Source of the DNA: Lewinella sp. 4G2
GTDB taxonomy: Bacteria > Bacteroidota > Bacteroidia > Chitinophagales > Saprospiraceae
Assembly (NCBI RefSeq): GCF_001625015.1
Contig: NZ_LVWJ02000014.1
Span: 1,984,001-2,048,000 of the forward strand
Reading direction: 5' to 3'
Length of the DNA stretch: 64,000 nucleotides
Positions 5,223 through 64,000 of this stretch are shown here, piece after piece. The notes beneath the pieces were generated by a model, which made no database searches, was not told the origin of the DNA, and worked only from the letters and a program-made list of their open reading frames with translations. A program made the translations under genes and the position numbers. The stretch's first letter is position 1; the number at the start of each line of letters is the position of its first letter.

Positions 5223-5597
5223 ATGACGGACGCCCAACGGCTCTCCCTGCGCCCAACCCTTTCCCTGGCACCTGCGGCAGCGCCCGGAGAACAGTTTCAG
5301 AACGACACGCTCCGCCCCGTAGCCAAGCAGCAAAACGATCTGCTCGTAGCGGCTTTCCGGCTTTTTTTGAAGAAACGCAAAGTGAATTTCAGCAGCACCG
5401 CCATGGCTGCCCGTTTCGCGAAGGTGAAGGAGCTCGTGGCGCGCGATAACCGCCTGCGGGGCTTACTTTTCGGCATTATTATTGGCGGTTTCACCACCAA
5501 AGAAATGCAGTATTACGTGGAAAATGAAGGTGAGGTAAATCGACGGCTTACCAACTTATTGACCGAGAGGCTGCTAGCCGTTGCCCGTTCTGCGTAA
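5223..5597 (+). CDS. Small protein of unknown function
   Basis: A 124-residue protein with no signal peptide and no family I recognise. The first 30 residues are Ala/Pro-rich and look disordered. The rest is predicted helical, with a short hydrophobic stretch near residue 83 (LLFGIIIGGF) too short to be a certain membrane segment, then charged helices. Its codons read well through to the stop and the start ATG follows a 250-base gap, which supports a real gene. Residues about 16-21 (APAAAP) are encoded by a copy of the dispersed 18-bp motif, so the N-terminal linker may be partly an inserted sequence. Confidence 0.6.
   Translation: MTDAQRLSLRPTLSLAPAAAPGEQFQNDTLRPVAKQQNDLLVAAFRLFLKKRKVNFSSTAMAARFAKVKELVARDNRLRGLLFGIIIGGFTTKEMQYYVENEGEVNRRLTNLLTERLLAVARSA
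5267..5285 (+). repeat. Dispersed 18-bp motif, copy 1 (in frame as APAAAP)
   Basis: An exact GCACCTGCGGCAGCGCCC with one extra G in front, inside the disordered N-terminus of the gene at 5223-5597. Confidence 0.85.
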
Positions 5598-5769
5598 AGT
5601 TCCGTTACTGCCCGCAATCCGACAATACGATACATACGGGCGCTGACGCGGGTACCGTGTTGATAGGCAAGCAATTATTCGTAGCAATATTGTTAACTTC
5701 GTTGACCTAATGCCCCGTGGTTACACCCCACCGAGGTGATTTGACCTGCTTTGTAATACTTCGAGATTT

Positions 5770-5825
5770 ACTCAATTGGTAGAGTTGGCTGGCCTCCGGG
5801 CCGGTAGTTGTTTGGTCTGATCGCT
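5770..5825 (+). other. tRNA-like fragment (D-arm and anticodon-arm resemblance)
   Basis: ACTCAATTGGTAGAGT is a textbook D-arm with a 4-bp stem, and it is followed by CTGGCCTCCGGGCCGG, which resembles an anticodon arm. The acceptor ends do not pair and no T-arm can be folded, so this is not a working tRNA. It may be a remnant or chance. It lies about 55 bases upstream of the secreted protease gene. Confidence 0.25.
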
Positions 5826-5879
5826 TCGGAATTGTTGTTGGCTACGGTGGCTTTTCCTCAGTTTGACACAGTCTTTCTC

Positions 5880-9665: not shown

Positions 9666-9687
9666 GACTGCTTTTGCTCCGGACCTT

Positions 9688-9727
9688 AAAAAAGGCTCCC
9701 CTTCCTGCTGGATGGGGAGCCTTTTTT
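9688..9727. terminator. Bidirectional terminator between convergent genes
   Basis: AAAAAAGGCTCCCC pairs with GGGGAGCCTTTTTT around a 12-base loop. It serves the protease gene ending at 9665 and, on the other strand, the convergent gene ending at 9790. Confidence 0.9.
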
Positions 9728-9789
9728 AGCTTTAGGTCGGACTCAAAATGGAAGCGCTCCGTCAAAGTCCGGCAGGATCGCTAACTGCT

Positions 9790-11352: not shown

Positions 11353-11457
11353 TGTATATTGAATTCGGGTAAACTATTGGAAATCAGTAATTTGCAAGCT
11401 AGGCGCTCATCGGTTGGTACGTCATTAGGCCTCAGGATAGGGGATTTAGGGATTCGT

Positions 11458-11485
11458 TTTGATCGGGTGCTTACCCTTACATTTA
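11458..11485 (+). promoter_or_regulatory. Candidate promoter of leuA
   Basis: TTTG at 11458-11461, then 16 bases, then TACATTTA at 11478-11485. The second box matches the Bacteroidota -7 consensus TAnnTTTG except for the last base. Predicted transcription would start near 11492, leaving a leader of roughly 95 bases before leuA. Confidence 0.35.
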
Positions 11486-14960: not shown

Positions 14961-14990
14961 ATTAGGTAGTTCTTTCAACATTCAGGTTTA

Positions 14991-15007
14991 GGCGCTCGCG
15001 CAGGTGC
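14991..15007 (-). repeat. Dispersed 18-bp motif, copy 2 (non-coding)
   Basis: GGCGCTCGCGCAGGTGC, one base different from the consensus core. It forms a divergent pair with copy 3, 49 bases to the right in opposite orientation, between the nuclease and hydrolase genes. Confidence 0.7.
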
Positions 15008-15056: not shown

Positions 15057-15074
15057 GCACCCGCGGCAGCGCCC
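15057..15074 (+). repeat. Dispersed 18-bp motif, copy 3 (non-coding)
   Basis: An exact GCACCCGCGGCAGCGCCC, inverted with respect to copy 2. The two could form a cruciform in the 194-base divergent gap. Confidence 0.85.
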
Positions 15075-20597: not shown

Positions 20598-21137
20598 TCA
20601 CAAATCCAACACCATAAACAAATCACAACCCGAGTGGCCCGTTGCGCCCATTGGCCCCTCCACGTAGCGGAAGCCATTTTTTTGGTAGAAGGCGGCGGCA
20701 TCCCGCATGGCGGTAACGGTCTCCAGGTACATCGTTTTGAACCCGTCTTTCCGGGCGCCTTCCAGGCATTGTTGGAGAAGGGCCTGGCCGACGCCCAATC
20801 CGCGGGCTTCGGGGAGGGCGTACATTTTGCGGAGTTCACAGACGTTGGGGTCACCACCGGTTAGGGGAGCGTACCCGGCTACAGCTACCAATTTACCTGG
20901 AGGGGGGCTTGGTTGCTTGCCCACTTCCCCGGCACCCGCGGCAGCGCCCAGATCTTGCACGACGAAATAATTGCTACGCGGTTTGGAGTAGGTGCCGTAG
21001 AGATCATCCATCTCAGGATCTTCGATGGAATAGCCCGGGCCGACGCAGCCGAACTCGGGCATGACGGTTTTGATGACCGCAGCGGCGGCGGCATTATCGG
21101 CGGCGGTGAGGGGGCGGACGGTGAGGTTTGGGGCCAC
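20598..21137 (-). CDS. GNAT-family N-acetyltransferase
   Basis: A predicted acetyl-CoA-dependent N-acyltransferase of 179 residues. The acetyl-CoA motif A is RKMYALPEARGLGVGQALLQ near residue 104, and motif B covers AAAFYQKNGFRYVEGP near 147. I take the GTG at 21137 as the start: it follows the hpt stop by one base and gives the normal N-terminal strand (VAPNLTVRPLT). A longer frame to 21212 would overlap hpt heavily. A surface loop (LGAAAGAGEVGKQPSPPPG) contains a copy of the 18-bp motif and looks like an insertion relative to family members. Substrate unknown. It is in a run with hpt and the M28 peptidase. Confidence 0.85.
   Translation of the reverse strand: MAPNLTVRPLTAADNAAAAAVIKTVMPEFGCVGPGYSIEDPEMDDLYGTYSKPRSNYFVVQDLGAAAGAGEVGKQPSPPPGKLVAVAGYAPLTGGDPNVCELRKMYALPEARGLGVGQALLQQCLEGARKDGFKTMYLETVTAMRDAAAFYQKNGFRYVEGPMGATGHSGCDLFMVLDL
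20931..20949 (+). repeat. Dispersed 18-bp motif, copy 4 (antisense in GNAT gene)
   Basis: GCACCCGCGGCAGCGCCC on the plus strand. The gene reads the complement as GAAAGA in a variable loop. Confidence 0.85.
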
Positions 21138-23513: not shown

Positions 23514-24062
23514 CTACCATTCCACGCGCACCATCGCGTCCACGTCGTCGCCAAATCGGTTCTCCTGCTTGGTCGTGACGATGTAGCCGAGCACCGGCCG
23601 GTAGATCATTTCGCTGCGCCCCTTGGAAAGCACGGTACCGGTTTTCCGGATGATCTTCAGTTGGATGGTCTGCCCACGTTCCTCTTCCACTTCCAAAAAC
23701 TGAGTCGTCAGCGTCGAGTCTAAGGCTTTGTACTGCGTTATTCGGTGTTGGCCACTCAATTGTTGCACGTCGGTCGCGTACTTATCCACCCACGCATTGC
23801 GGTTGATGTCTGCCCCAGCGAAGAGGCCAAGGTCCTTTTCGTAGTCGAGATCGTCCAGGATCTTCACCTCCGTCTCTCCGTTCAGCGTGATGGTTTTGTG
23901 CACGCGCAGCGGTTGGCCATTCAGCCGTTCCACCTCCGCAGCGATGTATCCCTTCAGGTCAAAAAAGTCGGCCGTCTGCACCTCCCCACCTTCGGGGGCG
24001 CTGCCGCAGGTGCTAAGCAATAGGAAAAAGAGGCAAGCTGCCAGCGGAGGGAGTATTCGCAT
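23514..24062 (-). CDS. Lipoprotein of unknown function
   Basis: A 182-residue protein with a lipoprotein signal (lipobox LLST-Cys19) followed by a Gly/Glu linker and a mixed alpha/beta domain with no motif I recognise. The DNA encoding the lipobox cysteine and the SAP residues after it is a copy of the dispersed 18-bp motif. It lies downstream of, and on the same strand as, hmgA (gap 87 bases) and could be its co-transcribed neighbour. A role in tyrosine catabolism is not implied. Confidence 0.7.
   Translation of the reverse strand: MRILPPLAACLFFLLLSTCGSAPEGGEVQTADFFDLKGYIAAEVERLNGQPLRVHKTITLNGETEVKILDDLDYEKDLGLFAGADINRNAWVDKYATDVQQLSGQHRITQYKALDSTLTTQFLEVEEERGQTIQLKIIRKTGTVLSKGRSEMIYRPVLGYIVTTKQENRFGDDVDAMVRVEW
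23996..24013 (-). repeat. Dispersed 18-bp motif, copy 5 (in frame as STCGSAP)
   Basis: GGGCGCTGCCGCAGGTGC on the plus strand. It spans the lipid-modified cysteine codon of the lipoprotein gene. Confidence 0.85.
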
Positions 24063-25428: not shown

Positions 25429-26619
25429 ATGCGCCAATCCTCCAGCCACGCCCTCCTTTGGGGTATTTTTTCCAACGGTAACGAATCCCCCCGCGTGGGT
25501 TTGGCCTCCGGCGACCACATCCTCGACATGGCGGCCGTCGCCGAATTGGGTCTCTTCAACTTCGACGTCAGCGTCTTTTACGAGGACCACCTCAATCCCT
25601 TCATCGCCCTCGGCAAGGAGATCACCAACGGGGCGCTGTCGCAGGTGCAAAGCTGGTTGGACGAACCGGGCGCCGGCCCTTTAGCTGACCCTTCCCTGTG
25701 GGTAGATCGGAAAACGGCAACCGTCCACCTCCCGGTAAGGGTAGGGGATTACACAGACTTCTACTCCAGTATCGAGCACGCCACGAACGTAGGTAAACTC
25801 TTCCGCGATCCGGAAAACGCCCTGCTGCCCAATTGGCGCCACCTCCCGGTGGGTTACCACGGGCGGTCCTCCTCCATCGTCGTTTCCGGGACGGACATCC
25901 GCCGGCCCCACGGTCAGGTAAAGCCGAACCACTACGACGCGCCAAAATTCGAACCCACCTCCCGGCTGGATTTTGAGTTGGAGATGGGTTTCATCATCGG
26001 TAAGGATTCGGAACTGGGAAAGCCAATCTCCACCGCCGAAGCTCCGGACTACATTTTTGGACTAGCCCTCTTCAATGATTGGTCCGCGCGGGATATCCAG
26101 AAGTGGGAGTACGTTCCCCTGGGCCCCTTCCTCGGTAAAAACTTCGCCTCTACGCTGTCGGCCTGGATTGTTCCCTACGAGACGCTGGAACCCTTCCGCG
26201 TTCCCGGCCCCAAACAAGATCCGGAAGTACTGGACTACCTACAGTATGAAGGCAATCATAACTACGACGTCCACCTGGAAGTCACCCTCACCCCCGCCGG
26301 TGGGGAGCCGACGGTGATCTCCCGTTCCAACTACAAATACATGTACTGGAATATGCTGCAGCAGTTGGCTCACCATACGGTAAACGGGTGCAACGTCCGC
26401 GTCGGCGACCTATTGGCGTCAGGAACGATCTCGGGTAAAGACGCCATGAGCTACGGCTCTTTATTAGAGTTAAGCGATGGTGGGCGGAAGGATATCGTAT
26501 TAAAAGACGGTACCATTCGCCGGTGGATTGAGGATGGGGATACGGTGACTTTCCGTGGATGGATGGAGCGGGGTGGGTTGCGGGTTGAGTTTGGGGAAGT
26601 TGTTGGGCGGATTGTGTGA
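25429..26619 (+). CDS. fahA: Fumarylacetoacetase
   Basis: Hydrolyses fumarylacetoacetate to fumarate and acetoacetate, the last step of tyrosine breakdown. The ATG at 25429 gives the usual N-terminus of 396 residues; the frame extends 13 codons up with no support. Core motifs of the FAH fold are YHGRSSSIVVSGTDIRRPHGQ near residue 142, LDFELEMGFIIGKDSELGKPI near 182, FNDWSARDIQKWEYVPLGPFLGKNF near 218, and the C-terminal GDLLASGTISG and WIEDGDTVTFRGW. A copy of the 18-bp motif encodes NGALSQVQ near residue 66. It is divergent from hmgA. Confidence 0.95.
   Translation: MRQSSSHALLWGIFSNGNESPRVGLASGDHILDMAAVAELGLFNFDVSVFYEDHLNPFIALGKEITNGALSQVQSWLDEPGAGPLADPSLWVDRKTATVHLPVRVGDYTDFYSSIEHATNVGKLFRDPENALLPNWRHLPVGYHGRSSSIVVSGTDIRRPHGQVKPNHYDAPKFEPTSRLDFELEMGFIIGKDSELGKPISTAEAPDYIFGLALFNDWSARDIQKWEYVPLGPFLGKNFASTLSAWIVPYETLEPFRVPGPKQDPEVLDYLQYEGNHNYDVHLEVTLTPAGGEPTVISRSNYKYMYWNMLQQLAHHTVNGCNVRVGDLLASGTISGKDAMSYGSLLELSDGGRKDIVLKDGTIRRWIEDGDTVTFRGWMERGGLRVEFGEVVGRIV
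25631..25648 (-). repeat. Dispersed 18-bp motif, copy 6 (inside fahA)
   Basis: GGGCGCTGTCGCAGGTGC, one base off consensus, read as GALSQV in a conserved housekeeping enzyme. Confidence 0.75.
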
Positions 26620-29887: not shown

Positions 29888-29905
29888 GGGCGCTGCCGCG
29901 GGTGC
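29888..29905 (-). repeat. Dispersed 18-bp motif, copy 7 (non-coding)
   Basis: An exact GGGCGCTGCCGCGGGTGC in the 265-base divergent gap between gcvP and the Uma2 gene. Nothing else was recognised in that gap. Confidence 0.85.
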
Positions 29906-34858: not shown

Positions 34859-34888
34859 AATCAGCAGCATATGATTTGATATGTGGAT
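34859..34888 (+). promoter_or_regulatory. Candidate promoter of the GH32 gene
   Basis: TTTG at 34859-34862, 18 bases, then ATGATTTG at 34881-34888 (one mismatch to TAnnTTTG). Transcription would begin near 34895 and the ATG is at 34922. Confidence 0.45.
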
Positions 34889-34921: not shown

Positions 34922-36652
34922 ATGCGGTTTACCTTGTTCTTTGCGCTCGTCTTCTCCCTGTATTCCTGCGGAAGTCCAACGGCTGAGACCCCGTCCGCTT
35001 CCAATGGCTCTGCACCTGCGACAGCGCCCGCTGAATATGACGAGGAAATGCTGCAGGACGCCGACGAGCACGCGCCCCCCGGCTACTACGAAAACCTACC
35101 CACGGAGGCTTATAACCCCGGTGAATACGACGAGCGCTTCCGGCCAGAATACCACTTTACGCCGCTGGAAGGTTGGATGAATGACCCAAACGGGATGGTC
35201 TATTACGACGGCGAATGGCACCTATTTTACCAGCATTTTCCCGATAGCAACCGGTGGGGACCGATGCACTGGGGCCACGCCATCAGCACCGATCTGGTGA
35301 ACTGGCAACACCTGCCGATTGCGTTGTACCCGGACGAAAAAGGCTACATCTTTTCGGGTAGTGTCGTAGTAGACCACGCCCAAAAAAGCCCCTTCGGGAA
35401 GGACGGTGAACCGGCGATGGTGGCCATGTTCACCTACCACGATATCGAGGGCGAAAAGGCCGGACGGGCCGACTACGAAACCCAGGGCATCGCCTATAGC
35501 AACGACCACGGGCGGACCTGGACGAAGTACGCCGGTAACCCCGTCATTCCCAACCGCGGGACGAAGGATTTTCGGGACCCCAAGGTGCTGTGGGACGAGA
35601 AAACCCAAGCTTACACCATGGTCCTCGCCGCCGCCGACCACGTGGAATTCTTCTCTTCGCCGGACCTCGTGAATTGGACCTACTTAAGCAGTTTTGGGAA
35701 GGACCAACCCGAACACTTCGGCGTCTGGGAGTGCCCCGAACTCATCCCCATGACGGTGGAAGAAACGGGGGAGGAAGCATACGTCCTCATCGTCAGTACC
35801 GGCCGTGGAAACCCCAACGGTGGGGGCTCGGCGACCTATTACTATACGGGGAATTGGGACGGCAAAACCTTCACCAAATTGAAGGAAACCAGCTACAACA
35901 AACCGGGTACCAAGTGGCTCGACCACGGCCGCGATAACTACGCCGCCGTCACCTTCGCCGACGTGCCGGATGGCGATGGCCGCACCATTTTAATGGGTTG
36001 GATGAGCAATTGGCAGTACGCTCAGGACGTGCCCACCGAAGGTTGGCGCAGCGCCATGACGGTACCGCGCAACTTGCGTTTGTACAACGACCCCGACTTT
36101 GGCTACCGCCTCCACCAGGCGCCGGTGAAGGAATTGGAACGCCTCCGGGGGAAGAAGATCGAACTCGGTACGGATTATTTGGAAGATGGCATCACGACGG
36201 TTGATTTAAGCGAGTTGGCTCACCCCGGGGTGTTCGAACTTAATTTTTCGGTGGATTTACACAGCAATTCCGAAGCGCTCTACTTTACGCTGACGGACGC
36301 TGACAATAAGAACTTTTACCGCTTTGGTTTTGACCGGAATATGGAAGAGGGCAAATGGATCTTCACCAGCCGCGACCTGGCAGGATTGCGAGAATTCCAC
36401 GAAGATTTTACCAGCGAAGAGTTGACGTTTCTGGACCGACCCAGTAATAATTCCGTGATGGACATTCGTATTTTGTTTGATAAGACGAGCGCCGAGGTTT
36501 TTCTCGATGATGGCCTCGCCGTAGCCACCGATATTTTCTTTCCGACTACTGATTTTACTTATCTCGTTTTTGAGGTAAGTGGTGGGCAAAAGGATTTGGA
36601 TGGGGATTTAGGGTTTTTGTTGGAGCGGGGGGATATTTGGGAATTAAAATGA
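34922..36652 (+). CDS. GH32 fructan hydrolase (levanase/inulinase-like) lipoprotein
   Basis: Surface or periplasmic glycoside hydrolase family 32 enzyme acting on beta-fructans or sucrose. The start at 34922 gives a lipoprotein signal with lipobox SLYS-Cys. Catalytic landmarks are WMNDPNG (nucleophile Asp, about residue 87), FRDPKV (transition-state Asp, about 217) and WECPELIP (acid/base Glu, about 275). The C-terminal 150 residues are the usual beta-sandwich. Of 576 residues, the linker after the lipid anchor (APATAPAEY) is encoded by the 18-bp motif. No susC/susD, fructokinase or transporter gene is adjacent, so this is not a standard fructan utilisation locus. Confidence 0.95.
   Translation: MRFTLFFALVFSLYSCGSPTAETPSASNGSAPATAPAEYDEEMLQDADEHAPPGYYENLPTEAYNPGEYDERFRPEYHFTPLEGWMNDPNGMVYYDGEWHLFYQHFPDSNRWGPMHWGHAISTDLVNWQHLPIALYPDEKGYIFSGSVVVDHAQKSPFGKDGEPAMVAMFTYHDIEGEKAGRADYETQGIAYSNDHGRTWTKYAGNPVIPNRGTKDFRDPKVLWDEKTQAYTMVLAAADHVEFFSSPDLVNWTYLSSFGKDQPEHFGVWECPELIPMTVEETGEEAYVLIVSTGRGNPNGGGSATYYYTGNWDGKTFTKLKETSYNKPGTKWLDHGRDNYAAVTFADVPDGDGRTILMGWMSNWQYAQDVPTEGWRSAMTVPRNLRLYNDPDFGYRLHQAPVKELERLRGKKIELGTDYLEDGITTVDLSELAHPGVFELNFSVDLHSNSEALYFTLTDADNKNFYRFGFDRNMEEGKWIFTSRDLAGLREFHEDFTSEELTFLDRPSNNSVMDIRILFDKTSAEVFLDDGLAVATDIFFPTTDFTYLVFEVSGGQKDLDGDLGFLLERGDIWELK
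35012..35029 (+). repeat. Dispersed 18-bp motif, copy 8 (in frame as APATAP)
   Basis: GCACCTGCGACAGCGCCC, one base off consensus, encoding the flexible linker behind the lipid anchor of the GH32 enzyme. Confidence 0.8.
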
Positions 36653-44226: not shown

Positions 44227-45546
44227 GTGGCGGCTGATTCCACGCTCATTCGCGCCGGGCAATTCGCCCAGGTAGTGCGGCAGGGCGCCATCATTTTGGT
44301 GGCCCTCGCGTTACCCCGTCTCGGCCTTGGCCGCGATATCATCGGTGAGTGGGAAGGTCTCCTCTACGTCGGTTACATCCTCGGTTTTGGTTGGCTGAGT
44401 GGCCTGTTGCAGGCCTACCTCGTCACCGTCCGCACAACCCTCGACGCTACGGTTTATTCCCGGCGCGTCCTCACGTCCATTGCCCTCACCAGCGTGGCCC
44501 TTCTCGGCGTGGCGGCGGGTTTGCACGAGTGGTTGTTCCGGTTGCTAAGGCTCGGTACGCCGCCGGAAGGCTGGTACTGGTTCTTCGTTTTTCTGGCTAC
44601 TCAGTGGCCGAGTTTGTTCTTTGAGCAACTCCTCCAATTGCGCGGTAAACCCTTTTGGTTGGCCGGTTTTGGGGTGTTTTCTGGCCTCGGTTACGTCCTG
44701 GCAATCCTGCTGCCCCTCTACTTTGGCGGCACGCTCAGCGACTCCTTGGCCTGGCTGGCGGCCTTCGCGGGCGGTAAAGGTTTGCTCATCGTAGGTTGGT
44801 TATTGGCGGACCAAATACGAGATAGGCGGGCGCTGCCGCAGGTGCCAAAAAATGGGAAAAACAAGGACCGGCTCCGCGACCTGTGGACCACCGCCGGCCC
44901 CTTGATCCTCTACGCAACGGTAGGTGGACTAGTAACGGCCTTCGACCCCTGGTTCGTCAATTACTGGTACGGCGACGACGAATCTATCTTCGCCCTCTAC
45001 CGCTACGGTGCCCGCGACATTCCCTTTGTGACGGCGGTAACGAGCGGCATGATCGTCGTTATCCTCCCCCGGCTGACGGAAAGCGTCGGTAGCGGGCTGG
45101 CCCAACTCAAAGCTTCCTCCCGCCGCCTGTTCCACTGGATCTTCGCAGGTACCTTACTGCTCATGGTAACGGCCCCCTTCTGGTGGGCCCCGGTCTTTAC
45201 GGAGTTGTTTGCGGAGGGCTTACCACTTTTCCGCCTGTACCTATTCATCACCGTGAGCCGCCTCCTCTTCCCGATGCCGGTGATCGTCGCTCTGGGGTAT
45301 ACCCGTGGGCTCTGGCTCTTCAGCTTCTCGGAATTGGTGATGAACCTTGTATTAAGCTGGTTACTGGTACCAAGTTTAGGCCTTTGGGGGATCGTCCTGG
45401 CCACCGTCGTATCCGATATTATCAATAAGGGTATCCTGATGTATTTCCTCTACCGGAAGGCGCGGATCTTGCCCGGCCAGTATATGGATTTGCGGGTGTT
45501 TCTGGGGTGGTGCCTGGTGCTTTTTGTGGCTTACTGGGTGGGGTAG
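44227..45546 (+). CDS. Polysaccharide/lipid flippase-like membrane protein (MOP superfamily)
   Basis: A 439-residue protein with about 12 transmembrane helices, a predicted exporter of lipid-linked sugars (Wzx/MurJ-like, polysaccharide biosynthesis protein family). It starts at GTG 44227, seven bases after the saccharopine dehydrogenase stop, so the two are co-transcribed. A cytoplasmic loop near residue 205 (RALPQVPKNGKNKDR) is encoded partly by the 18-bp motif. No glycosyltransferase genes are near, so the substrate is open. Confidence 0.82.
   Translation: MAADSTLIRAGQFAQVVRQGAIILVALALPRLGLGRDIIGEWEGLLYVGYILGFGWLSGLLQAYLVTVRTTLDATVYSRRVLTSIALTSVALLGVAAGLHEWLFRLLRLGTPPEGWYWFFVFLATQWPSLFFEQLLQLRGKPFWLAGFGVFSGLGYVLAILLPLYFGGTLSDSLAWLAAFAGGKGLLIVGWLLADQIRDRRALPQVPKNGKNKDRLRDLWTTAGPLILYATVGGLVTAFDPWFVNYWYGDDESIFALYRYGARDIPFVTAVTSGMIVVILPRLTESVGSGLAQLKASSRRLFHWIFAGTLLLMVTAPFWWAPVFTELFAEGLPLFRLYLFITVSRLLFPMPVIVALGYTRGLWLFSFSELVMNLVLSWLLVPSLGLWGIVLATVVSDIINKGILMYFLYRKARILPGQYMDLRVFLGWCLVLFVAYWVG
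44828..44845 (-). repeat. Dispersed 18-bp motif, copy 9 (in frame as ALPQVP)
   Basis: An exact GGGCGCTGCCGCAGGTGC in the central cytoplasmic loop of the flippase gene. Confidence 0.85.
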
Positions 45547-47388: not shown

Positions 47389-47405
47389 GCACCTGCGGCA
47401 GCGCC
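47389..47405 (+). repeat. Dispersed 18-bp motif, copy 10 (non-coding)
   Basis: An exact GCACCTGCGGCAGCGCC in the 434-base divergent gap between the DCC and SPFH genes. Apart from this and the DCC promoter nothing firm was recognised in that gap; a TACTTTAG at 47548-47555 may be the weak -7 box of the SPFH gene. Confidence 0.85.
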
Positions 47406-47572
47406 AACTAATTATTTTCATATCGATAATTAAATAGTAAATAGCCATTAACCGTAAGCACTTTGTTCTCTTAACACTCCCAAAACACCCTGAGTTACCA
47501 AACCCCTAAATGAATTAAAATCATAAAATAAACGCACGATCGCCGCTTACTTTAGTGAAAACCCAATACACC

Positions 47573-52040: not shown

Positions 52041-53336
52041 GTGTTACGGCCCGTCCTGTTTTGCTTGCTCTTTTTGCTGGGCACCTGCGTCAGCGCCCAA
52101 ATCCAGCACGATTTTACGAATCTGGCGCGGACGCGGGTGCAATATATCGCCGCCCGGACCGACCTCGAATTAACGGACCAAAACGAACTACAGGATATCT
52201 CCAAAAATACCGGTACCGAGCAGTTGGATGCCATGCGGCAAACGCTCGTCAATCTGCCGGCTTTTACCGACGCGCGCTGGGAATTGGATATCAAAATAAA
52301 TAAGGACGGCACCGCCGATACCCTGGTAAATTGGACGGTAGAGGAAAGCCGGACGATCTTCCCCATCCTCAGTATCGGTGGCGTGCGGGGGAATACTTAT
52401 TACCAGGTTGGATTTAACGACATACACTTCCGGGGGCGGGGGCAGGAATTAACTGCCTTTTACCAGAATAATGATGGGGAACACAATTACCTGGTATTAC
52501 TCCGCAACCAAAATTACCGCGGCTCCCGCTGGGGCTACAGCCTCGAAAGCCGCCGCTACGCCGCCGTCGAACCGGTCTACTTCCCGGAGGCGGCCGTGGA
52601 TTACCGGTACAGCAACCAGAGTTTCGGAGCCGGCGTCAGCTTCGCCCCAACCATTGGCCAGTCGCTCACCTTCGGCCTGACGACCTTCCGGGAAAAGTAC
52701 CGCAAAATTGAGAGTGGCAACCTGGAAACACCCGGCCCCGATTTTGTGAGTCTACAGAAGTATCTCGTCAAAATGGGTTACAGTCGCAACCGGACCGACC
52801 GCTTCGCCGAACGGTTGGAAGGGACCCACCACGAAAGCAACGTCCAGGCCGTCCGCACCGTCGGTGGCAACGACAACTTCCTGATCGCCTGGCACGATTT
52901 TCGGTACTTCCAATTGCTGGGCAACCGCTCCAACCTCGCCCTGCGGCTGCGGACGGGCCTCAGCAGCAACAACGAATCTCCCTTCGCTCCGTTCGTGCTG
53001 GATAGCCAGTTTAACATCCGTGGCAGCGGCAACCGGATCGACCGGGGCACGGCCCAACTCGTCCTTAACCTGGAGTACCGCTACTCCGTGTGGCGCGACC
53101 GTAGGGAACGCTTCGCCGCCCAACTCGTCGGCTTTTCTGACCTTGGTACCTGGCGCTCCCCCGGCGGCGAACTGGCCGACCTCTGGGAACGGGAATCCGT
53201 CCGCCATTTCCTTGGTGCCGGCGTTCGCCTCATCAGCCTGAAGGCCCACAACGCCGTCCTCCGCATCGACTACGGCGTCGACGTGACCGACCGCCGCGCG
53301 AACGGGGTAGTGGTAGGCTTTGGCCAGTATTTTTAA
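52041..53336 (+). CDS. BamA/TamA-superfamily outer-membrane protein, short form
   Basis: A 431-residue Omp85-like protein. The GTG at 52041 begins a signal peptide (VLRPVLFCLLFLLGTCVSAQ). A single POTRA-like domain (residues about 40-105, LVNLPAFTDARWELDIKIN) precedes the barrel (SIGGVRGNTYYQVGFNDIHFRGRG to VVVGFGQYF, ending in aromatic Phe). BamA has five POTRA domains and about 800 residues, so this is a minimal relative, perhaps a lipase-linked or surface-protein secretion factor. It is co-transcribed with the DUF547-barrel gene. Its signal-peptide end is encoded by a copy of the 18-bp motif. Confidence 0.8.
   Translation: MLRPVLFCLLFLLGTCVSAQIQHDFTNLARTRVQYIAARTDLELTDQNELQDISKNTGTEQLDAMRQTLVNLPAFTDARWELDIKINKDGTADTLVNWTVEESRTIFPILSIGGVRGNTYYQVGFNDIHFRGRGQELTAFYQNNDGEHNYLVLLRNQNYRGSRWGYSLESRRYAAVEPVYFPEAAVDYRYSNQSFGAGVSFAPTIGQSLTFGLTTFREKYRKIESGNLETPGPDFVSLQKYLVKMGYSRNRTDRFAERLEGTHHESNVQAVRTVGGNDNFLIAWHDFRYFQLLGNRSNLALRLRTGLSSNNESPFAPFVLDSQFNIRGSGNRIDRGTAQLVLNLEYRYSVWRDRRERFAAQLVGFSDLGTWRSPGGELADLWERESVRHFLGAGVRLISLKAHNAVLRIDYGVDVTDRRANGVVVGFGQYF
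52081..52098 (+). repeat. Dispersed 18-bp motif, copy 11 (in frame as GTCVSAQ)
   Basis: GCACCTGCGTCAGCGCCC, one base off consensus, at the signal-peptidase site of the BamA-like gene. Confidence 0.8.
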
Positions 53337-55678: not shown

Positions 55679-57643
55679 CTAAAGACTGCTGAGGCTCCTT
55701 AGCCACGGCTCCCGTCCACTTACGCTTTGCACCCGCGTCCGCGCCCGAATACCTTCCGCCCGCGTCGCGAAGGGGCCAAGCAAAATGCGGAAAGCCGTTC
55801 GCCCATTTACTTCGCTGATGCTGACCATGACGGGCAAGCCGTACTGTTTTTCGGCGCTTTCCACCTCCCGCAACACGTTGGCTAGCTCGGCCAGGACGCT
55901 CATCTGGAGGCCGTAACCCGTCTTCGCCTGGTTGCGCACGCTGAAGCGGTACAAACCGGTACCATTGCCAATGCGGATGGGCGTGGTAGGGCGTGCCGGG
56001 GCCGGCGTAGGTTTGGGCGCTGGCCCCGATTCAATGCGGGACGAGTTGGGCGCTCGCGCGGGTGCGGGGGGAGTGGGAACAGGAGGCGCTGGCTGTGAGA
56101 TTCCACCGGAATTCCGCAGCCGCAACGCTTCGGTAACGGCTCGTTCCGCATTGACGCGGCCGTAACCAAACTTGGTGGAGTAACCCCGCGCGTCGTACTC
56201 CCAACGGTTCCCAATCTTATCCGCCGTGGCTTCAAGAATGGACTTTACCTGCACGCTGGTAAGCTGAGGATTGGCGGACAACATGAGGGCGCAGATGCCG
56301 GCGACGAGGGGCGTGGCCGCGCTCGTGCCCCCAAAGTGTTTGTAGTTAACGCCCCGGTCGAGGCCGTCCACGTAGTACCGCCGCGCGCCGGATTGCCGGG
56401 TATTGCCCGCATCCCAACTCGCCCGCCCGGCGATGATGGGCCACCCGCCATCTGACGGTGCGACGACGCTGAGACCTTGCCCCCGGTTGGAATAACTGGC
56501 GTGGGTATCCGAACTCGTACTCGCCCCCACTGCGATGACGCCGGGGAGGGTGGCGTAGTAATTAACGGTATCCCGCCCCTCATTACCAGCCGCGAAAACG
56601 ACGACGCAGCCCTTCCCCCCGCGGCCCTGGGTGACGGCCTTGCGAACGGACCGCGCGTGCTCCGAATCCGGCCGGTAACGCGCGTCGATCGTCCCCCAAC
56701 TACAACTGATCACGTCCGCCCCGTTGCGAATGCAGTGGCTAAACATGCGCTCCGTCAGGAATTTTGAGTAGGTGAGTCCGTGGAGTGGCATCAAGCGGGC
56801 GAGGGGTGCCACCCCGACCAGACCTGTACCGTTCGCCGCCGCGACGGCAACGGTGGAGCAGGGCGTAGCGTGGTCCCCAAACCGCGAGCCGGTGGGTAAC
56901 TGATTGGAATTGCTGGAGATGTTGAGTGGCGCGACGGCCTTGCCCCGCAGATCCGGGTGGGCGAGATCAAAACCATTGTCGATCACCGCCACGGTGATGT
57001 TCGGATCGCCGAGGTTGCCGAGTAGGCGCCAGGCGGCCTTCACCCGTGCGTCGGCCCCCTGCTTGAGGGGGAAGTTGGGCACGCCCCGCAGGCTCCCCTG
57101 GTTTTCGAGGTGCCAGGCCTGGGGGAGTAAACCATCACGTGGCTCGGCGAAGTATTGATCGAGGGGCACGTCCAGATCGGGGTAAGCGTGGTGCACCATA
57201 CTCAGCTGGGAAAGCTGGCTGGCCACCCGCAACGGATTCGGGCTCTTTGGCGTGACCTGGCAGACGATGGTGCCATCCTCCCGCTCCTCCAGGATTTCCA
57301 GCGCAAAGGCGTCGAAAATCACGGACCGCTCCTCGGTACCAACCCCTTCGGCCATCTCTACGTACAGCACGCCGGTGGGCACCACGGGCCGGTTGTCCCC
57401 CTCCGCAAAATAGATGTGGGTGCCGACGGCCACGGCGTCCTCCTCCCGGGCTACGTCGAGGGCCTTATCGATGTCTTCCTCCCCGCTCAGGGTCACCACT
57501 TCAAACCCACCCAAATTAGGAATTACGTGCGCGTTGACGGCCTTAACCTCCGCGTTTTCGTTGGTTTTCTTTAAGCCCACCAGCCGGGTTGATTTACGCA
57601 GGGAGAGCGGCCCGGTTTCGGAGGGGATTTGGTAGGTTGGCAT
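55679..57643 (-). CDS. S8 subtilisin-like protease with C-terminal SPOR-like domain
   Basis: A 654-residue protein. The N-terminal 180 residues have no recognised domain. The subtilase core follows: catalytic Asp in VIDNGFDLAHPDL near 222, His in FGDHATPCSTVAVA near 256 (in the usual GHGTHVAG position), oxyanion Asn in VFAAGNEG near 355 and Ser in FGGTSAATPLVAG near 440. A Pro/Ala-rich linker (about 510-560, partly encoded by the 18-bp motif) leads to a SPOR-like domain (VMVSISEVNGRTAFRILLGPFATRAEGIRA). No signal peptide is visible from the ATG at 57643, so export is unclear; a cytoplasmic role is possible. It is a stand-alone gene. Confidence 0.87.
   Translation of the reverse strand: MPTYQIPSETGPLSLRKSTRLVGLKKTNENAEVKAVNAHVIPNLGGFEVVTLSGEEDIDKALDVAREEDAVAVGTHIYFAEGDNRPVVPTGVLYVEMAEGVGTEERSVIFDAFALEILEEREDGTIVCQVTPKSPNPLRVASQLSQLSMVHHAYPDLDVPLDQYFAEPRDGLLPQAWHLENQGSLRGVPNFPLKQGADARVKAAWRLLGNLGDPNITVAVIDNGFDLAHPDLRGKAVAPLNISSNSNQLPTGSRFGDHATPCSTVAVAAANGTGLVGVAPLARLMPLHGLTYSKFLTERMFSHCIRNGADVISCSWGTIDARYRPDSEHARSVRKAVTQGRGGKGCVVVFAAGNEGRDTVNYYATLPGVIAVGASTSSDTHASYSNRGQGLSVVAPSDGGWPIIAGRASWDAGNTRQSGARRYYVDGLDRGVNYKHFGGTSAATPLVAGICALMLSANPQLTSVQVKSILEATADKIGNRWEYDARGYSTKFGYGRVNAERAVTEALRLRNSGGISQPAPPVPTPPAPARAPNSSRIESGPAPKPTPAPARPTTPIRIGNGTGLYRFSVRNQAKTGYGLQMSVLAELANVLREVESAEKQYGLPVMVSISEVNGRTAFRILLGPFATRAEGIRARTRVQSVSGREPWLRSLSSL
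56048..56065 (-). repeat. Dispersed 18-bp motif, copy 12 (in frame as APARAP)
   Basis: GGGCGCTCGCGCGGGTGC, a variant in the core, in the proline-rich linker of the subtilase. Confidence 0.7.
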
Positions 57644-57737: not shown

Positions 57738-57800
57738 AATATTTTGGTGATAGAGTGAGGATCATGAATACTTGATAAATTTAACGAAAACCCGGATCCG

Positions 57801-58310: not shown

Positions 58311-58339
58311 GCCCGAGGCAAGCCCCCCCCCGCAGGCAC

Positions 58340-61300
58340 CTACCGCACCGGTACCGACAAAATCCCCCCATTCCCATTCACCACCGGCAAATACTGCAAC
58401 TCCACCCGCGCCGGGTTCAGCGTATACGCCCCCCTGAACCGCGGCGCCAACGCAATTTTGTACGTGTATTCCCCCGCCGGCAACCGGTCGCAGAAGATGG
58501 CCACCCGGTCGCGGCGATATTCGCGGTGGACGGCGTAACTACCCTTCGCCTCCATCCGGTCCGCGTAGCTGCAACCGGCGGGGATGGGGGCTTCGATGAG
58601 GACGTATTCCCCATCCTTTTTTGCGGTGACGGTTACTTGCAGATAGGCAGTCTGGCCTTTGGTTAGCGCATCCAGCGGGCGGCCGCGCGCGTCAGTGAGT
58701 TGGGTCGAGATGGCGTAACCGTTGTCGGTGGGTTTGGCCTCCCGCTCGAAGTAGCGTTGGTAGAAGGCGCCGGGGATGGGTCCGGCACCGTCGCGACTCA
58801 GCTCGAGGGAACGAGCGGCGTCCGGCGAGAAGGAAGCGACGTAGGGAAACTCCCGCACCACCTCACTCGTGCCCGAATGGCGCACGGTAACCGTAGGCGG
58901 CCGCAGGGTTTCACTTTCCTCGATCAGGTCCGGTAGGAGATCAGCCACCAGGCGGGCGGATTCTAGGGTATTCGTCCCTAATAACGGGGTGCTGCCGGGG
59001 CGGTTCCCGTTAGGCGTCTGGCCGAGGAGGTAATTCACGGCTTCGTCGGCGGCCTCAGTAGCGCCGGTCTTGCGCAGGATGCGGTGAGCCAGCAGTGTGG
59101 CGTTCAGGCGGTTATCGAGCGGTGCGCGGTAGAAAAAGCGGCCGCGCTCGCCCCAATACCGGCCCTGCAGTTGGTGGGTAGAGGCGCTGTCCAGGATTCT
59201 GGTGACGTCCACCGTATCCCCGCGTAATTGGTGGAGACGGCTGACGGCGAGGAGCTGGAAATCGGTTTTAATGGTAATCGTGTCCACCGTCGCCATTTCG
59301 GCTTGGGTTGGCGGGCGGCCATTTTCGGCAAGTACGAGGTGGGTTTGGAGACGGTCGTTCGGCCGCATGGTTGGCAGCTCGGAAAAAAGGTAGCGGCGAA
59401 CGGGTTCCAGATGGGCCACCGGGTAACTTTTCTCCGCCGCACTCAGCGCTCGGTAGGCGTGGCGGGTGATCCAGACGGTGGAGAAAGTAGAGTTTGCCCA
59501 CCACCCGAATCCACCATCTGGCTGCTGTAGTTTTTCCAGGTGTTTGATCATTTTCCGGACGTCGCGATCCCGGTTAAAGGCTTTGCCCTCGGCCAGGCGA
59601 ATATCCCGCAGCGCGAGGAGACCCAGCAGACGGCTGGCGGTCTGTTCAGCGCAGGCGTAGGGATAGTCGGTGATGTACTCCAGGTCGCCCAGCAGTTGTT
59701 CGAGCCGGTTACCGACGATGGTCAGTTGGAGGTTTCCGCGACCGGCTTGGGTGTAGTTTTCCGGAATGCGGAGGCCTTCTTTTCCAAGCATAAAGCGTTC
59801 TCCCGCGACCATCTCGGTACCCCGTGGGTACACCCGGATATCGCGTTGCTCACCGTCGCTGGTTGGCGTTTGGTTTTGGGCGCTGCCGCGGGTGCCGGGT
59901 GCGGGGGTAGGGGAGGCCACCAGCGAAAATTGGTAACGCAAACTATCCGTCGTCTCCCCCGCACGAATGGGGAACGTTTTGGCGATGGAAGTTTGGAGTA
60001 CGGTGTCGAGCCGTGATCGCTCAATGTTATCCCCACTAAAGGCCAGACGCACCGTTCGGTCGCTCCCCGTCCGGTTGATGGCCAGCGCACGGGCTTCACT
60101 CTCGTCCCCTTGTACCAAAAACCGGGGGAGGTACAATTGAGCCTGGAGGGGGAGAAAGGATTTGGTCCGCTTACGGGTGAAACCTATCCGACGCCGCCGG
60201 TCCTGCCCCACGGCGTAGGTTTGCCAGGCAGTGATGTCGTCGGGAAAGGTCACGTCAAAAGCCGCTTCACCCCGGCTATCGGTAGCGAGGTGAGGAATGA
60301 AGGCGGCCAGGTCCGCAAAAGACTCCCGCACGTCGGGCTCTGCGTCTGCGGGAGGGAGTAGGTTGGCGGGGTTGTTGGTGGTGATGTAAACCGTCCCGTT
60401 CTCTACGTTGAGTTCGACGATGCCCTTTATGGCGGCAAAATCGACGGGTAGCTCCTGGGCGATGCCGTCGATGAAAACAGGGAGCCCTTCGGCGGGTAGG
60501 CTGGTGGCGCCGCGGATGAGGATATTTGGTGCTTCATCTACCTTTACACCGTCGACGTAATAAGTCGTGGTGTTGGTGCGGGAACCTCGGATATTGATGT
60601 TGCCAGATTCAATAATTTTAACGCCGGCAGCTTTGCTGGCGATAGTAACAATTGAACCCGTTATATCCCTTTTCAGTGTGGTGCCGTATCCTACCACAAC
60701 CACTTCCTCAAGATTAGCCCAGTCCGCTTCCAATGTGATGAGGATTTCATCCGAATTGGAATAGATCTGCCTTACGTCAATCTCCGTCGATTTATAGCCG
60801 AGATAGCTGACTAGAATAATGTGTCGCTTTGCTGGCAGATCTAAGCTAAATTTTCCATCCAGGTCGGTAACGGTGCCACGCGTTGTTCCGTCAACAAGAA
60901 GAGTAACTCCAATTAGTGGTATCCCATCTTCATTGATTACGTAACCACTAACTTCCGCACCATCAAAGTCGTCAGGTAAATCAATAAAGGTTTGCGTCTG
61001 CTCGGTCAGTGTATCACCAGGGACGTGCTTGCTTTCTAAATTTTCGGAGGGTAGTGGCGGGATATATATATCAAGGCCGACTTTATTGAAATCAACTAAT
61101 AGCAGTTGATTTGGCCGGGTAGTAATTGTAGTAGCGTACAGGTTGCCATTTTGATTTTTAAATATTAAGAAGTAACTGCCGGGTAGCAGCGTATTTATCT
61201 TGCTGCCTTCGAACTTGTACAGCGTGTTTTGATAGGTCGGAGCAATAACTATCTCACTGATTGTATCCGGTAGATTGAGCAGTTGAATGCGCGACTTCTC

Positions 61301-64000
61301 CATCGCAGGAGTAAGCTTAGGTAAATTCTTCGTACTCAGCGGTGCAATTCCGCTTTTGGGTAAGATTGGAGTTGGTAAGGCATATCTCGGAAGTCCGGGA
61401 GATTGGATGGCATTCCTTACAACTTGGCGTTGCATTCGTGCAACCTCCTCTTTTTCAAGTGAATAGAGACGATCACGATCCATTCTGACCTTATATACAG
61501 CTTTTGGCTCAAAGGGGACATTCGCCTTTCCACCGTAGGGAAAGTGAAATTCAATTAGGTCAGAATAAGTAGCTAAGCCGAGTGGAGAATGGGCTTGATA
61601 GTGGTGGCCCGTCCCGGATTGGAACATTTCATTTCTCTTGGTGCGGTAGTTGTAAACGGCCGTAGTTTCCATTTTGGTCACCGCAAAAACCCGCTTCCAC
61701 AATTCCTCAATCTCCCCCTCTTCCCACTCCGGCATCGCATCTTTCTTCCACCCGGCACCTGCGTGCAGCGCCCGCTCGAAACTTAAAACGAGTTGCTCGC
61801 CAGCATTGAAATGGAGTTTTTTGGCATACCGCGCCTCATCCGTGCGGAGGACGATATCGTGCCAGCCCGTATTCAAAGGAATGGAATAAGGGGTGGTGAT
61901 ATTCGGGTGGTACCAATACACGAGCCGATCGTCAGCGTAAACGGTGCGGATGGCGATAGGTGCGCTTTTCTCCATAATAAATGGCGCAAAATGGGCGATG
62001 GCCGCACTGTCCGGCAAAAGGGTATCAATGGAGCGTCGCAACGTCCACTCCGGCGTAGGGTAGCGGAGGCGGTAAACGGCGGCCGTATCGATTCCAGCAT
62101 TCTCGAGAAGCCACCTTGAGGCGGTCCCGGTGAATTTACGCTTATAGGTCGCCAACGCATACTTTTGCCGGCGCCGCTGCCGCTTTCTTTTTTTGATATA
62201 AGTAGGTAAAGTAACCGGAGAATCTTCAAAACGCGCGTTGTAGGTGCCCGCGCTGAGGCGCACGTTTTGGGCCGGTCGCCCCTTGTGGTCCGTCGCTTTC
62301 ACCGCCACCCGCACGGTCTCGCCGGGGCGGACTTCCTCCGGTTGCTCCATCTCCAGGTTCAGTACGTTGGGGTGTTCGGTTTCCCAGTCGTAGCGCGGAG
62401 AGGTAGTTGTGAAGGAGGCCGTTCGCCAGACGCCCCCGGCGAGGTACTGGTATTGGAGGGTGTAGGTTTTGCCGGGTGGAAAGCCGGAGAAACGTTGGTG
62501 CTTCATATCTCCATCCCACATGTACAATTCGTTCTTTACCCCTTGCCCACTTATCAGTTGCCAATTACTCCGTGGCTGATTATGAGGGTTGGGGATATGT
62601 ATTTTTATTGTATCTCTTGACCAGGCCGCTGGTGAACTTGTTGCGGGTCGCAGTTCGGATAAATCCTGGCTAACAATTTGATCTCCAAATTGAAATTCAT
62701 ATTTATATAAGAAATGGTTAATGGTCTCCGAGTAAGGCAGCGTAACCACCTCCCGCACAGTATCCAAACGCGGCGATATCCTCAGTAATTCCCCACTCGT
62801 AGCGGCGGGTTCCCCCCGGCCACGCAACTGAATTTTCAGCGAATCCGCCGCCACGTTGATGGTGGCGACTTGGGCGTAGCGCCGGTCAATCGTCATCTCC
62901 AAACTTTGCTCCTGGTATTCGCCGGAAGGGCCGGTTAGTTGCACTTCCGCCAAAACAGACAATGCATAGCCTACGGGAAAGAGGCTGTCGGGCAGGACCA
63001 GCCGGTGTTCCCGCCGGTTATCCGTCGGTTGCGTAATGGTGATCAAACTATCCGGCAAGGAAATACTTCCCGCCGTATCCACCGCAGCCGTAAACTTATC
63101 CAAATAAAGGGTCAGGCTGAGCTCGGCGTCCGGCAGGGCGAGGCCATTGACGTCCTCGGCCACCACGTCCACGTACGCGGAGTTGGGGAAACGGGTTTCC
63201 TCGGAGGCCTCCGCCGTCAGTTCGTACTCCGCCAACTCGTAATCTTCCAGCTGAAAACTGATCTCGGCGTTGACGTCCCGCTTCATAAAACCCTCCCGAT
63301 CGAAAGAAATGGTGTAGCGTTTGTCCAACGTCCAGTTGGGGTCGATGGGCCCGGCGTAGGTATACCGCCCCTTCTCCGAACGGGGAATATTTTTGATTAA
63401 CACGGGCGCGTAAGACCCCTGTTTCCGAATTACCATTTCCAGCGAATCTGCCCCCAGCGGCCGGCCCTTCGGCGAGGCCACGTAGGCACTCACCCGCAGG
63501 GTATCCCCCGGCCGGTACTTCGGCTGGCTGGTGGTGACGTAGCCAATGGCATTGCGGGGATTTATAATCGGGTAGATGTACCGCTTAAGTGGGTAGTTAT
63601 GAATCCGCCACTGTCCCCAACGAAAACCGTGTTGCACGTATTTATACGTCCGTCGCCCGATCACGTAAGGGTAGGCGATCGTCCGCCCCGGCAGGCTGTA
63701 GCGGGCGCGGCGGAGCAACCACCCGACCTTGGTTTTGTCGATATCTTCCGTAATTCGGTATAGCAACGTATCGGTGTCCACCACTACGGTCAGTAAATCA
63801 ATGTGCCAGTCCCGCCGCACGTAAGCTTGCCGCTTCTTATCGTATCGCACGCGTTTATCATCGGCCAGCACCGTAGCGTCGGCGCGATTCTTTCCATTTT
63901 TGTCAAATATCCGCGCTTCAAATTTGCCCTTCACGCCGTCCACTTGCACGGTGTGCGCATACGTATCGAAATACTGGTAATCCACTTCCGTACCGTATAT
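58340..64000 (-). CDS. Alpha-2-macroglobulin-family protein with embedded carboxypeptidase-regulatory and TonB-plug-like domains, 5' part missing
   Basis: A giant periplasmic or surface protease-trapping protein. The frame is still open at base 64000; about 1886 residues are seen, and the GTG at 63985 is not the true start. Numbering from 63985, MG2-type domains (YVTTSQPKYRPGDTLRVSAYV, about 150) come first. Near 1010 is a CarboxypepD_reg-like domain (VSGYVINEDGIPLIGVTLLVDG), and near 1095 a TonB-plug-like domain (VVVGYGTTLKRDITGSI, then NIRGSRTNTTTYYVDGV). The alpha-2-macroglobulin core follows, with the thioester motif CAEQ near 1445 (YPYACAEQTASRLL). The thioester should form a covalent trap for attacking proteases. 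Two copies of the 18-bp motif lie within it. Confidence 0.9.
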   Translation of the reverse strand: MYGTEVDYQYFDTYAHTVQVDGVKGKFEARIFDKNGKNRADATVLADDKRVRYDKKRQAYVRRDWHIDLLTVVVDTDTLLYRITEDIDKTKVGWLLRRARYSLPGRTIAYPYVIGRRTYKYVQHGFRWGQWRIHNYPLKRYIYPIINPRNAIGYVTTSQPKYRPGDTLRVSAYVASPKGRPLGADSLEMVIRKQGSYAPVLIKNIPRSEKGRYTYAGPIDPNWTLDKRYTISFDREGFMKRDVNAEISFQLEDYELAEYELTAEASEETRFPNSAYVDVVAEDVNGLALPDAELSLTLYLDKFTAAVDTAGSISLPDSLITITQPTDNRREHRLVLPDSLFPVGYALSVLAEVQLTGPSGEYQEQSLEMTIDRRYAQVATINVAADSLKIQLRGRGEPAATSGELLRISPRLDTVREVVTLPYSETINHFLYKYEFQFGDQIVSQDLSELRPATSSPAAWSRDTIKIHIPNPHNQPRSNWQLISGQGVKNELYMWDGDMKHQRFSGFPPGKTYTLQYQYLAGGVWRTASFTTTSPRYDWETEHPNVLNLEMEQPEEVRPGETVRVAVKATDHKGRPAQNVRLSAGTYNARFEDSPVTLPTYIKKRKRQRRRQKYALATYKRKFTGTASRWLLENAGIDTAAVYRLRYPTPEWTLRRSIDTLLPDSAAIAHFAPFIMEKSAPIAIRTVYADDRLVYWYHPNITTPYSIPLNTGWHDIVLRTDEARYAKKLHFNAGEQLVLSFERALHAGAGWKKDAMPEWEEGEIEELWKRVFAVTKMETTAVYNYRTKRNEMFQSGTGHHYQAHSPLGLATYSDLIEFHFPYGGKANVPFEPKAVYKVRMDRDRLYSLEKEEVARMQRQVVRNAIQSPGLPRYALPTPILPKSGIAPLSTKNLPKLTPAMEKSRIQLLNLPDTISEIVIAPTYQNTLYKFEGSKINTLLPGSYFLIFKNQNGNLYATTITTRPNQLLLVDFNKVGLDIYIPPLPSENLESKHVPGDTLTEQTQTFIDLPDDFDGAEVSGYVINEDGIPLIGVTLLVDGTTRGTVTDLDGKFSLDLPAKRHIILVSYLGYKSTEIDVRQIYSNSDEILITLEADWANLEEVVVVGYGTTLKRDITGSIVTIASKAAGVKIIESGNINIRGSRTNTTTYYVDGVKVDEAPNILIRGATSLPAEGLPVFIDGIAQELPVDFAAIKGIVELNVENGTVYITTNNPANLLPPADAEPDVRESFADLAAFIPHLATDSRGEAAFDVTFPDDITAWQTYAVGQDRRRRIGFTRKRTKSFLPLQAQLYLPRFLVQGDESEARALAINRTGSDRTVRLAFSGDNIERSRLDTVLQTSIAKTFPIRAGETTDSLRYQFSLVASPTPAPGTRGSAQNQTPTSDGEQRDIRVYPRGTEMVAGERFMLGKEGLRIPENYTQAGRGNLQLTIVGNRLEQLLGDLEYITDYPYACAEQTASRLLGLLALRDIRLAEGKAFNRDRDVRKMIKHLEKLQQPDGGFGWWANSTFSTVWITRHAYRALSAAEKSYPVAHLEPVRRYLFSELPTMRPNDRLQTHLVLAENGRPPTQAEMATVDTITIKTDFQLLAVSRLHQLRGDTVDVTRILDSASTHQLQGRYWGERGRFFYRAPLDNRLNATLLAHRILRKTGATEAADEAVNYLLGQTPNGNRPGSTPLLGTNTLESARLVADLLPDLIEESETLRPPTVTVRHSGTSEVVREFPYVASFSPDAARSLELSRDGAGPIPGAFYQRYFEREAKPTDNGYAISTQLTDARGRPLDALTKGQTAYLQVTVTAKKDGEYVLIEAPIPAGCSYADRMEAKGSYAVHREYRRDRVAIFCDRLPAGEYTYKIALAPRFRGAYTLNPARVELQYLPVVNGNGGILSVPVR
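59878..59895 (-). repeat. Dispersed 18-bp motif, copy 13 (in frame as GTRGSAQ)
   Basis: An exact GGGCGCTGCCGCGGGTGC, in a loop between beta-domains of the macroglobulin just before the bait/thioester half. Confidence 0.85.
61755..61773 (+). repeat. Dispersed 18-bp motif, copy 14 (antisense, read as ALHAGA)
   Basis: GCACCTGCGTGCAGCGCCC, the consensus with one extra base in the core. The in-frame reading still works, in a loop of the macroglobulin. Confidence 0.6.

Follow-up and report, generated by a model that had tools for sequence, protein, structure and literature searches.

A candidate uptake-sequence-like DNA site dispersed through the genomes of Neolewinella

What keeps one DNA word dispersed over both strands of a bacterial genome, inside genes and between them? 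The question is raised by a stretch of 64,000 nucleotides from Lewinella sp. 4G2 (contig NZ_LVWJ02000014.1 of assembly GCF_001625015.1, positions 1,984,001 to 2,048,000; hereafter the window), in which a first-pass annotation had pointed to an 18-bp word occurring 14 times. Each of the 14 copies could be confirmed, some of them starting 1 bp away from the position given, although the 18-mer itself is shared by only some of them: seven copies are exact, four carry one mismatch, and the last three have two mismatches, three mismatches and a centre longer by 1 bp, respectively (Table 1). Allowing up to three mismatches, the 18-mer matches the window at 17 places, compared with a mean of 0.22 and a maximum of 2 in 100 dinucleotide-preserving shuffles, and four window sites, one of them weak, come in addition to those first listed. 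As argued below, the word very likely marks a DNA-level site with species dialects, and we consider it on balance probable that this site is an uptake-sequence-like marker of self, maintained through recombination and a bias in DNA uptake.

The signal is not confined to the window. Across the genome (G000; 5.21 Mb, 21 contigs), the exact 18-mer was found 454 times, with 230 forward and 224 reverse copies, and the same word read backwards was not found at all. A relaxed word, in which one centre base is free and at most two mismatches are tolerated, gave 1,302 matches against 110 for its reversed control. We then used a site profile (position weight matrix, PWM) trained on 95 copies, all located outside a contiguous test region of 464 kb. 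In that region the profile detected 112 sites above a score of 14, of which 104 still exceed 22, versus a single one in the reversed sequence. Over 864 kb, comprising the test region and 20 further stretches (17 of which supplied the training copies), it detected 228 sites, or about 264 per Mb.

Alignment of 107 copies from 464 kb revealed an asymmetric site of 30-40 bp, which consists, in this order, of a pyrimidine-rich tract, GCACCYGCG, a centre, CGCC, a C and an A-rich end (AAAT). The pyrimidine tract is strongest at positions -10 to -1, with a weak preference back to about -20, and the sequence flanking the site is unrelated between copies. Most centres have the form NCAG: among 182 counted over the 864 kb, 60 kb of which was counted twice, we found GCAG (106), TCAG (22), ACAG (17), CCAG (16), CGAG (6) and the 5-bp TGCAG (2). 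An odd palindrome had initially been taken for the core of the word. However, any base may follow YGCG in this genome, other species have a different centre, and the palindrome is therefore not the conserved feature.

Comparison with 20 congeners indicated that the site exists in species-specific forms. The exact word is present in ten of them (0 to 43 copies per genome), and the same search returned none in 39 genomes of other genera. Counted with mismatches, as had been proposed at the outset for the genome and its relatives, the relaxed word exceeds its reversed control more than threefold in 17 of the 20 congeners, the exceptions being G001 (41 versus 46), G007 (85 versus 59) and G011 (13 versus 17). 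Twenty of the 21 genus genomes have an excess of the common layout ACCTGCG-N(4-6)-CGCC (133 to 1,430 copies versus 7 to 37), the only one without it being G011 (20 versus 13). The G011 genome carries 984 copies of TTGCTACTTTGNNAG at no more than one mismatch (control 10), a word with at most eight copies in each of the other 20 genomes, and its sites have a similar layout, CRRCA-YTGCTACTTTGNYAG-CCAAAA (34 sites in 180 kb). The centres of other congeners differ as well, judging from the small portions sampled (5 to 80 kb in each genome): they read NCCG, NCCC or NCCA (the latter from three copies in G015), a 5-bp CGCCG together with GCTCC in G004, and CTCCG in G007 and G001 (6 and 8 contexts). 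Elsewhere in the family, no more than 60 copies of the layout (control 32) were counted in any of 59 other genera, a few of which show a mild excess (for example, 24 versus 3, 36 versus 10 and 17 versus 3), and a de novo search for an equivalent motif in five other genera (74, 31, 64, 7.6 and 65 kb, two of these samples being small) yielded none that was convincing. When a stricter form of the site was sought in species genomes, the matches listed (80 of at least 120 loci) all came from Neolewinella, Lewinella or one unclassified Bacteroidia metagenome-assembled genome.

The fumarylacetoacetase gene speaks directly to constraint on the DNA. The gene was found in 20 of the 21 genomes, once as a fragment without the site region, and in 15 of the remaining 19 (the present genome and 14 congeners) the site occupies the same codons on the same strand, with no indel. 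At residues conserved among these 15 genomes, the modal codon has a share of 0.90 over the site versus 0.62 elsewhere, ranking first of 242 windows. This is direct evidence of constraint on DNA and bears out the initial suggestion of a maintained DNA site. The site is lacking in G001, G007, G011 and G015; the first three also lack the present word overall, and G015 has the most divergent protein (52%). In a single case a residue follows the dialect, namely a Leu in the present genome, where the codon CTG corresponds to the CAG-type centre, that is Arg in 14 of the 15.

A second shared position lies in the hypervariable loop of a flippase-like gene, in which the nearest relative, G019, keeps the site with a different centre and G013 has it in the opposite orientation. 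Elsewhere in this gene, near locus position 2028, several congeners (L264-L268 and others) carry a site-like GCACCCGCGAAnCCCGCC at a conserved antisense place, which may represent one more dialect copy or owe its presence to the protein; the loop of G003 (L271) contains a long in-frame insertion with two copies of a GAGGCTGCTCGCTCCGCTCGTGA repeat. Among 138 sampled orthologue pairs, 32 have a site in either partner. We compared zero-mismatch sites of the present genome with their orthologues in 24 cases, some sites entering twice: seven sites were shared, 12 faced aligned non-site sequence (the flippase-G019 pair falls in this class solely through a split of the site by the aligner) and five lay opposite gaps, three of these at gene ends and two in internal linkers of the genes at 34883 and 55679. 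Since most comparisons show shared or aligned sequence and few show gaps, insertion is not the rule, although single copies may be insertions.

With respect to genes, as predicted by a simple caller in the 464 kb (294 genes, 83% coding), the sites favour permissive places. Intergenic positions hold 53 of the 112 sites, although they make up 16.6% of the bases (p = 4e-14), and the 59 coding sites are split between 29 sense and 30 antisense copies. The sense copies occupy all three frames (9, 18 and 2), and 14 of the 29 fall within the first fifth of their gene. When read in sense, the pyrimidine tract encodes a run of hydrophobic residues and the core an end that resembles a cleavage site, as in LLFLLGTCVSAQ at 52065, so that some sites apparently serve as signal peptides as well. 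Gaps between divergent genes have the greatest site density (18 sites in 19.2 kb) and those between convergent genes the smallest (6 sites in 16.0 kb), and in 39 of the 53 intergenic sites the core end is the side closer to a gene (p = 0.0008). In the window, these gene calls place nine of the 14 original copies in genes and five outside, rather than ten and four as the first-pass annotation had it; its remark that many copies sit in tolerant places (linkers, signal-peptide ends and gene gaps) holds.

Intervals between sites of the 464 kb look random if nothing is excluded (coefficient of variation, CV, 0.96 versus 0.99, p = 0.43). With one stretch removed that is dominated by a 48-kb gene, they are spaced more regularly than expected by chance (CV 0.82, p = 0.011; with close pairs merged, 0.74, p = 0.002), and counts are under-dispersed in bins of 8 kb (0.41, p = 0.0003) and 16 kb (0.44, p = 0.007); in 32-kb bins under-dispersion is not clear (p = 0.055, or 0.24 with close pairs merged). 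The gene in question, located beyond the window, is an open frame of 16,119 aa (48.4 kb) with no internal stop (L208:2861 to L210:11220; G000:C14:2070861-2119220), which resembles a giant repeat-rich surface protein and holds only two sites. Outside it, the largest site-free gap measures 17.7 kb and covers a stretch with a GC content of 0.42-0.47 (172-184 kb of the joined sequence; L212-L213, about G000:C14:2156000-2168000), where reading of the proteins predicts surface-polysaccharide genes. Site density rises with GC over 216 bins of 4 kb (rho = 0.40, p = 7e-10), to which composition may contribute. Sites less than 250 bp apart are inverted in all 19 pairs of the present genome, where 15 pairs of any orientation are expected, and in 25 of 28 pairs in the relatives, whose loci were not cleared of overlap. 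One possibility is that such pairing arises through deletion of close direct repeats.

The individual sites of the window are listed in Table 1. Two further observations concern repeats: a hairpin-like stretch resembling GTCCCGCACTCAGTCGGGGCGCC follows some sites (L032:6451, L032:14629, L035:14076 and the window site at 56048), and other repeated words of the window and of further stretches of this genome (for example, ACGCTCGCAGGA, TTAGATTTTAGA and GAGGCCTGCGGC blocks) occur in a few clustered places with long conserved flanks, the site by contrast being dispersed.

Table 1. Sites in the 64-kb window (coordinates relative to its first nucleotide)
Feature	Coordinates	Strand	Remarks
Site core, exact	5268..5285	+	Sense in predicted gene; PWM 39.3
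Site core, 3 mismatches, centre CGAG	14990..15007	-	Intergenic; left half of inverted pair with 15057
Site core, exact	15057..15074	+	Intergenic; right half of inverted pair with 14990
Site core, exact	20932..20949	+	Intergenic
Site core, exact	23996..24013	-	Sense, 15 bp into called gene, signal-peptide-like end; shared with G019
Site core, 1 mismatch	25631..25648	-	Antisense in fumarylacetoacetase; same codons in 15/19 genomes
Site core, exact	29888..29905	-	Intergenic
Site core, 1 mismatch	35012..35029	+	N-terminal linker of GH32 protein; site also in relative L113; gap in G019
Site core, exact	44828..44845	-	Antisense, hypervariable loop of flippase-like gene; G019 site with different centre
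Site core, 1 mismatch	47389..47406	+	Intergenic
Site core, 1 mismatch	52081..52098	+	Sense; translates as LLFLLGTCVSAQ, signal-peptide-like
Site core, 2 mismatches, centre CGAG	56048..56065	-	Sense in subtilase gene
Site core, exact	59878..59895	-	Sense in large gene
Site core, 5-bp centre TGCAG	61755..61773	+	Inside called gene 58340-64261; escapes fixed-length PWM
Additional site, 2 mismatches	828..845	-	PWM 24.5
Additional site, 2 mismatches	5638..5655	-	Intergenic; PWM 30.9
Additional site, 2 mismatches	55729..55746	+	Antisense in subtilase gene; PWM 27.8
Weak additional site, 3 mismatches	52123..52140	-	PWM 15.6

The number of the sites, their anatomy and dialects, the constraint on DNA in one gene and the shared positions are observed directly, and uptake sequences, which were not among the candidates first proposed, fit them best. 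Under this explanation, cells would import DNA and a surface receptor would favour fragments bearing the species' own site. RecA/DprA-dependent recombination of the imported fragments would then spread and repair sites wherever they are harmless, keeping them sharp, and a change in the taste of the receptor would lead to their rewriting across the whole genome. ComEC was found in all 21 genus genomes (772 aa in the present one) and DprA in 20, the miss being a genome that is 55% complete. T2SSE matches occur in 20 of the 21 genomes but are all short (19-25 bits, marginally over the cut-off in 11 genomes) and are probably P-loop fragments of other proteins; the gene content thus points to neither a type IV pilus nor a type II system. 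Given that ComEC and DprA are retained, whereas secretin is absent and a convincing pilus ATPase was not found, DNA would cross the outer membrane through a machine that does not depend on pili, like that proposed for Riemerella. With the pilus missing, we do not file the site as a DNA uptake sequence (DUS) or uptake signal sequence (USS), though it would work like one. More tentatively, at roughly even chances, Neolewinella may import DNA in a pilus-free, sequence-specific manner through a novel type of outer-membrane receptor that reads the bipartite 30-40 bp site. Receptor and site would then have co-diverged into several dialects, with a complete replacement in G011, and uptake sequences would have arisen independently for a third time, on hardware of their own.

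Several points weigh against an uptake marker. ComEC and DprA are weak evidence for uptake because they are common in control genomes as well (10 and 10-11 of 14, respectively), and secretin matches were found in none of the 21 genus genomes, while six of the 14 controls have them, so that the machinery of known uptake systems appears to be missing here. The comEC neighbourhood, the only one examined for this purpose, contains no receptor candidate. A text search for helix-hairpin-helix competence motifs in the sampled 17% of the present genome returned none, which says little. Furthermore, G015 has the motif genome-wide, yet no fumarylacetoacetase site, and the uptake model does not fully account for the inverted geometry of close pairs. 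The even spacing depends on the post hoc exclusion of one stretch and was not significant in G011 (31 sites, p = 0.36), in which the trend of density with GC is likewise absent (rho = 0.08).

The strongest alternative, which we regard as unlikely but serious, is that a genus-specific intracellular chromosome-organising protein, of nucleoid or SMC type, binds the sites, and that the dialect follows that protein. The DNA-level constraint, the presence on both strands without gene polarity and, with the giant gene set aside, the even spacing would all suit such a protein, and ComEC and DprA do not prove competence. However, the spacing is random without that exclusion, the sites lie in permissive places and vary between species, and the conversion of about 1000 targets to an unrelated word in G011 is hard to envisage without a copying process. 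We rank uptake above a structural DNA-binding protein because a rewrite on this scale needs a force acting on each site, which biased uptake supplies.

The site might instead mark self for another process, either as a modification or nuclease-protection site or as a recombination hotspot with gene-conversion drive. Some restriction-type sites are bipartite with a variable centre, but the known ones are far shorter than 30-40 bp. The bipartite core and variable centre of 4-6 bp recall such sites, and drive could spread copies; the length, the extended tract and the expectation that a genome does not accumulate restriction sites make this explanation improbable.

A dispersed mobile element, or the ends of one (as in repetitive extragenic palindromic, REP, sequences or miniature inverted-repeat transposable elements, MITEs), could account for the inverted close pairs and for the five gap cases, two of them internal linkers. 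It is highly improbable, given that about half of the copies (59 of 112) are coding, that the fumarylacetoacetase site is common to 15 genomes without an indel, that 12 of the 24 comparisons faced aligned non-site sequence and that flanks are unrelated. Accordingly, the earlier proposal of a small mobile unit's footprint is not supported as a general rule, orthologues differing mostly by substitution, with two copies in linkers that differ by gaps.

There is a very slim chance that the site is a polar replication or repair signal such as Chi or KOPS (FtsK-orienting polar sequences): its copy number is high, but its length, the even strand balance genome-wide and in the test region (50/62, p = 0.30), an argument that the first-pass annotation had already drawn from the copies in the window, and sampled stretches that nearly all have sites on both strands (L038 has none, L029 one strand only) speak otherwise. 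Strand polarity along contig C14, suggested by plus-strand copies alone among the matches listed there, was considered and rejected in view of these stretches. The chance is equally slim for a regulatory element or transcription terminator, which could explain the intergenic enrichment and the hairpins that inverted pairs might form, but not the balance of sense and antisense coding copies or the minimum of density between convergent genes. Finally, an artefact of composition or codon usage, conceivable for a site that is GC-rich and Ala/Pro-rich in one frame, is practically negligible in view of the excess over shuffled and reversed controls and of copies on both strands and in all sense frames, which equally uphold the earlier claims that the site is beyond chance and that protein selection alone cannot explain it.

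If the uptake explanation is true, DNA self-recognition has evolved again with different hardware, in a Bacteroidota genus without secretin, the congeners are natural replicates of a dialect switch, and site-tagged DNA offers a handle for genetics in marine Neolewinella. Even if the reader is a chromosome protein, the rewriting of about 1000 long sites between congeneric species would be very unusual. In the open-licence literature searched, we found no description of an uptake sequence in Bacteroidota or of the present genus-wide signal.

Among known repeats, the HIP1 word of cyanobacteria is a short palindrome over-represented within and between genes. The Neolewinella site shares this over-representation, but it is long, asymmetric and species-specific, with dialects, so that the HIP1-like site first considered is a poor match. 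REP/REPIN and MITE repeats have many dispersed copies and inverted pairs; the present site differs in that half of its copies are coding and that copies are common to species without an indel. Closer in phylogeny is Riemerella (Bacteroidota), whose competence involves ComEC, DprA, ComF, RecA and four proteins that do not resemble known components of uptake systems, the essential genes of the screen including no standard pilus parts (PMC8459023). Neolewinella resembles it in having ComEC and DprA. R. columbina prefers its own DNA, but no uptake sequence is defined for it, only A/T-rich k-mers being listed (PMC7965970).

Uptake sequences have been described in two proteobacterial families, both pilus-using (PMC1939737, PMC7811141), and known DUS and USS combine high copy number and dialects with permissive places in the core genome, and are missing from recent insertions (PMC3630211, PMC2397512, PMC1939737). 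The USS of Pasteurellaceae is unrelated in sequence and phylum, and the pilus machinery was not found in Neolewinella. It is nevertheless similar in scale and form, with about 1,471 copies and a 29-bp extended consensus in H. influenzae, and in its occurrence in both orientations, its coding copies and the reported gene-end biases (PMC1939737, PMC2346458, PMC12616744). The DUS of Neisseriaceae is shorter, at 10-12 bp versus a 30-40 bp site with a bipartite core, and is taken up via type IV pili and ComP, whereas secretin is absent here. Yet the two are alike in their hundreds to thousands of copies, their dialects with a shared sub-core, their intergenic enrichment and their permissive locations; DUS is also rare in acquired DNA, a trait that the site-free low-GC locus may echo (PMC3630211, PMC2397512).

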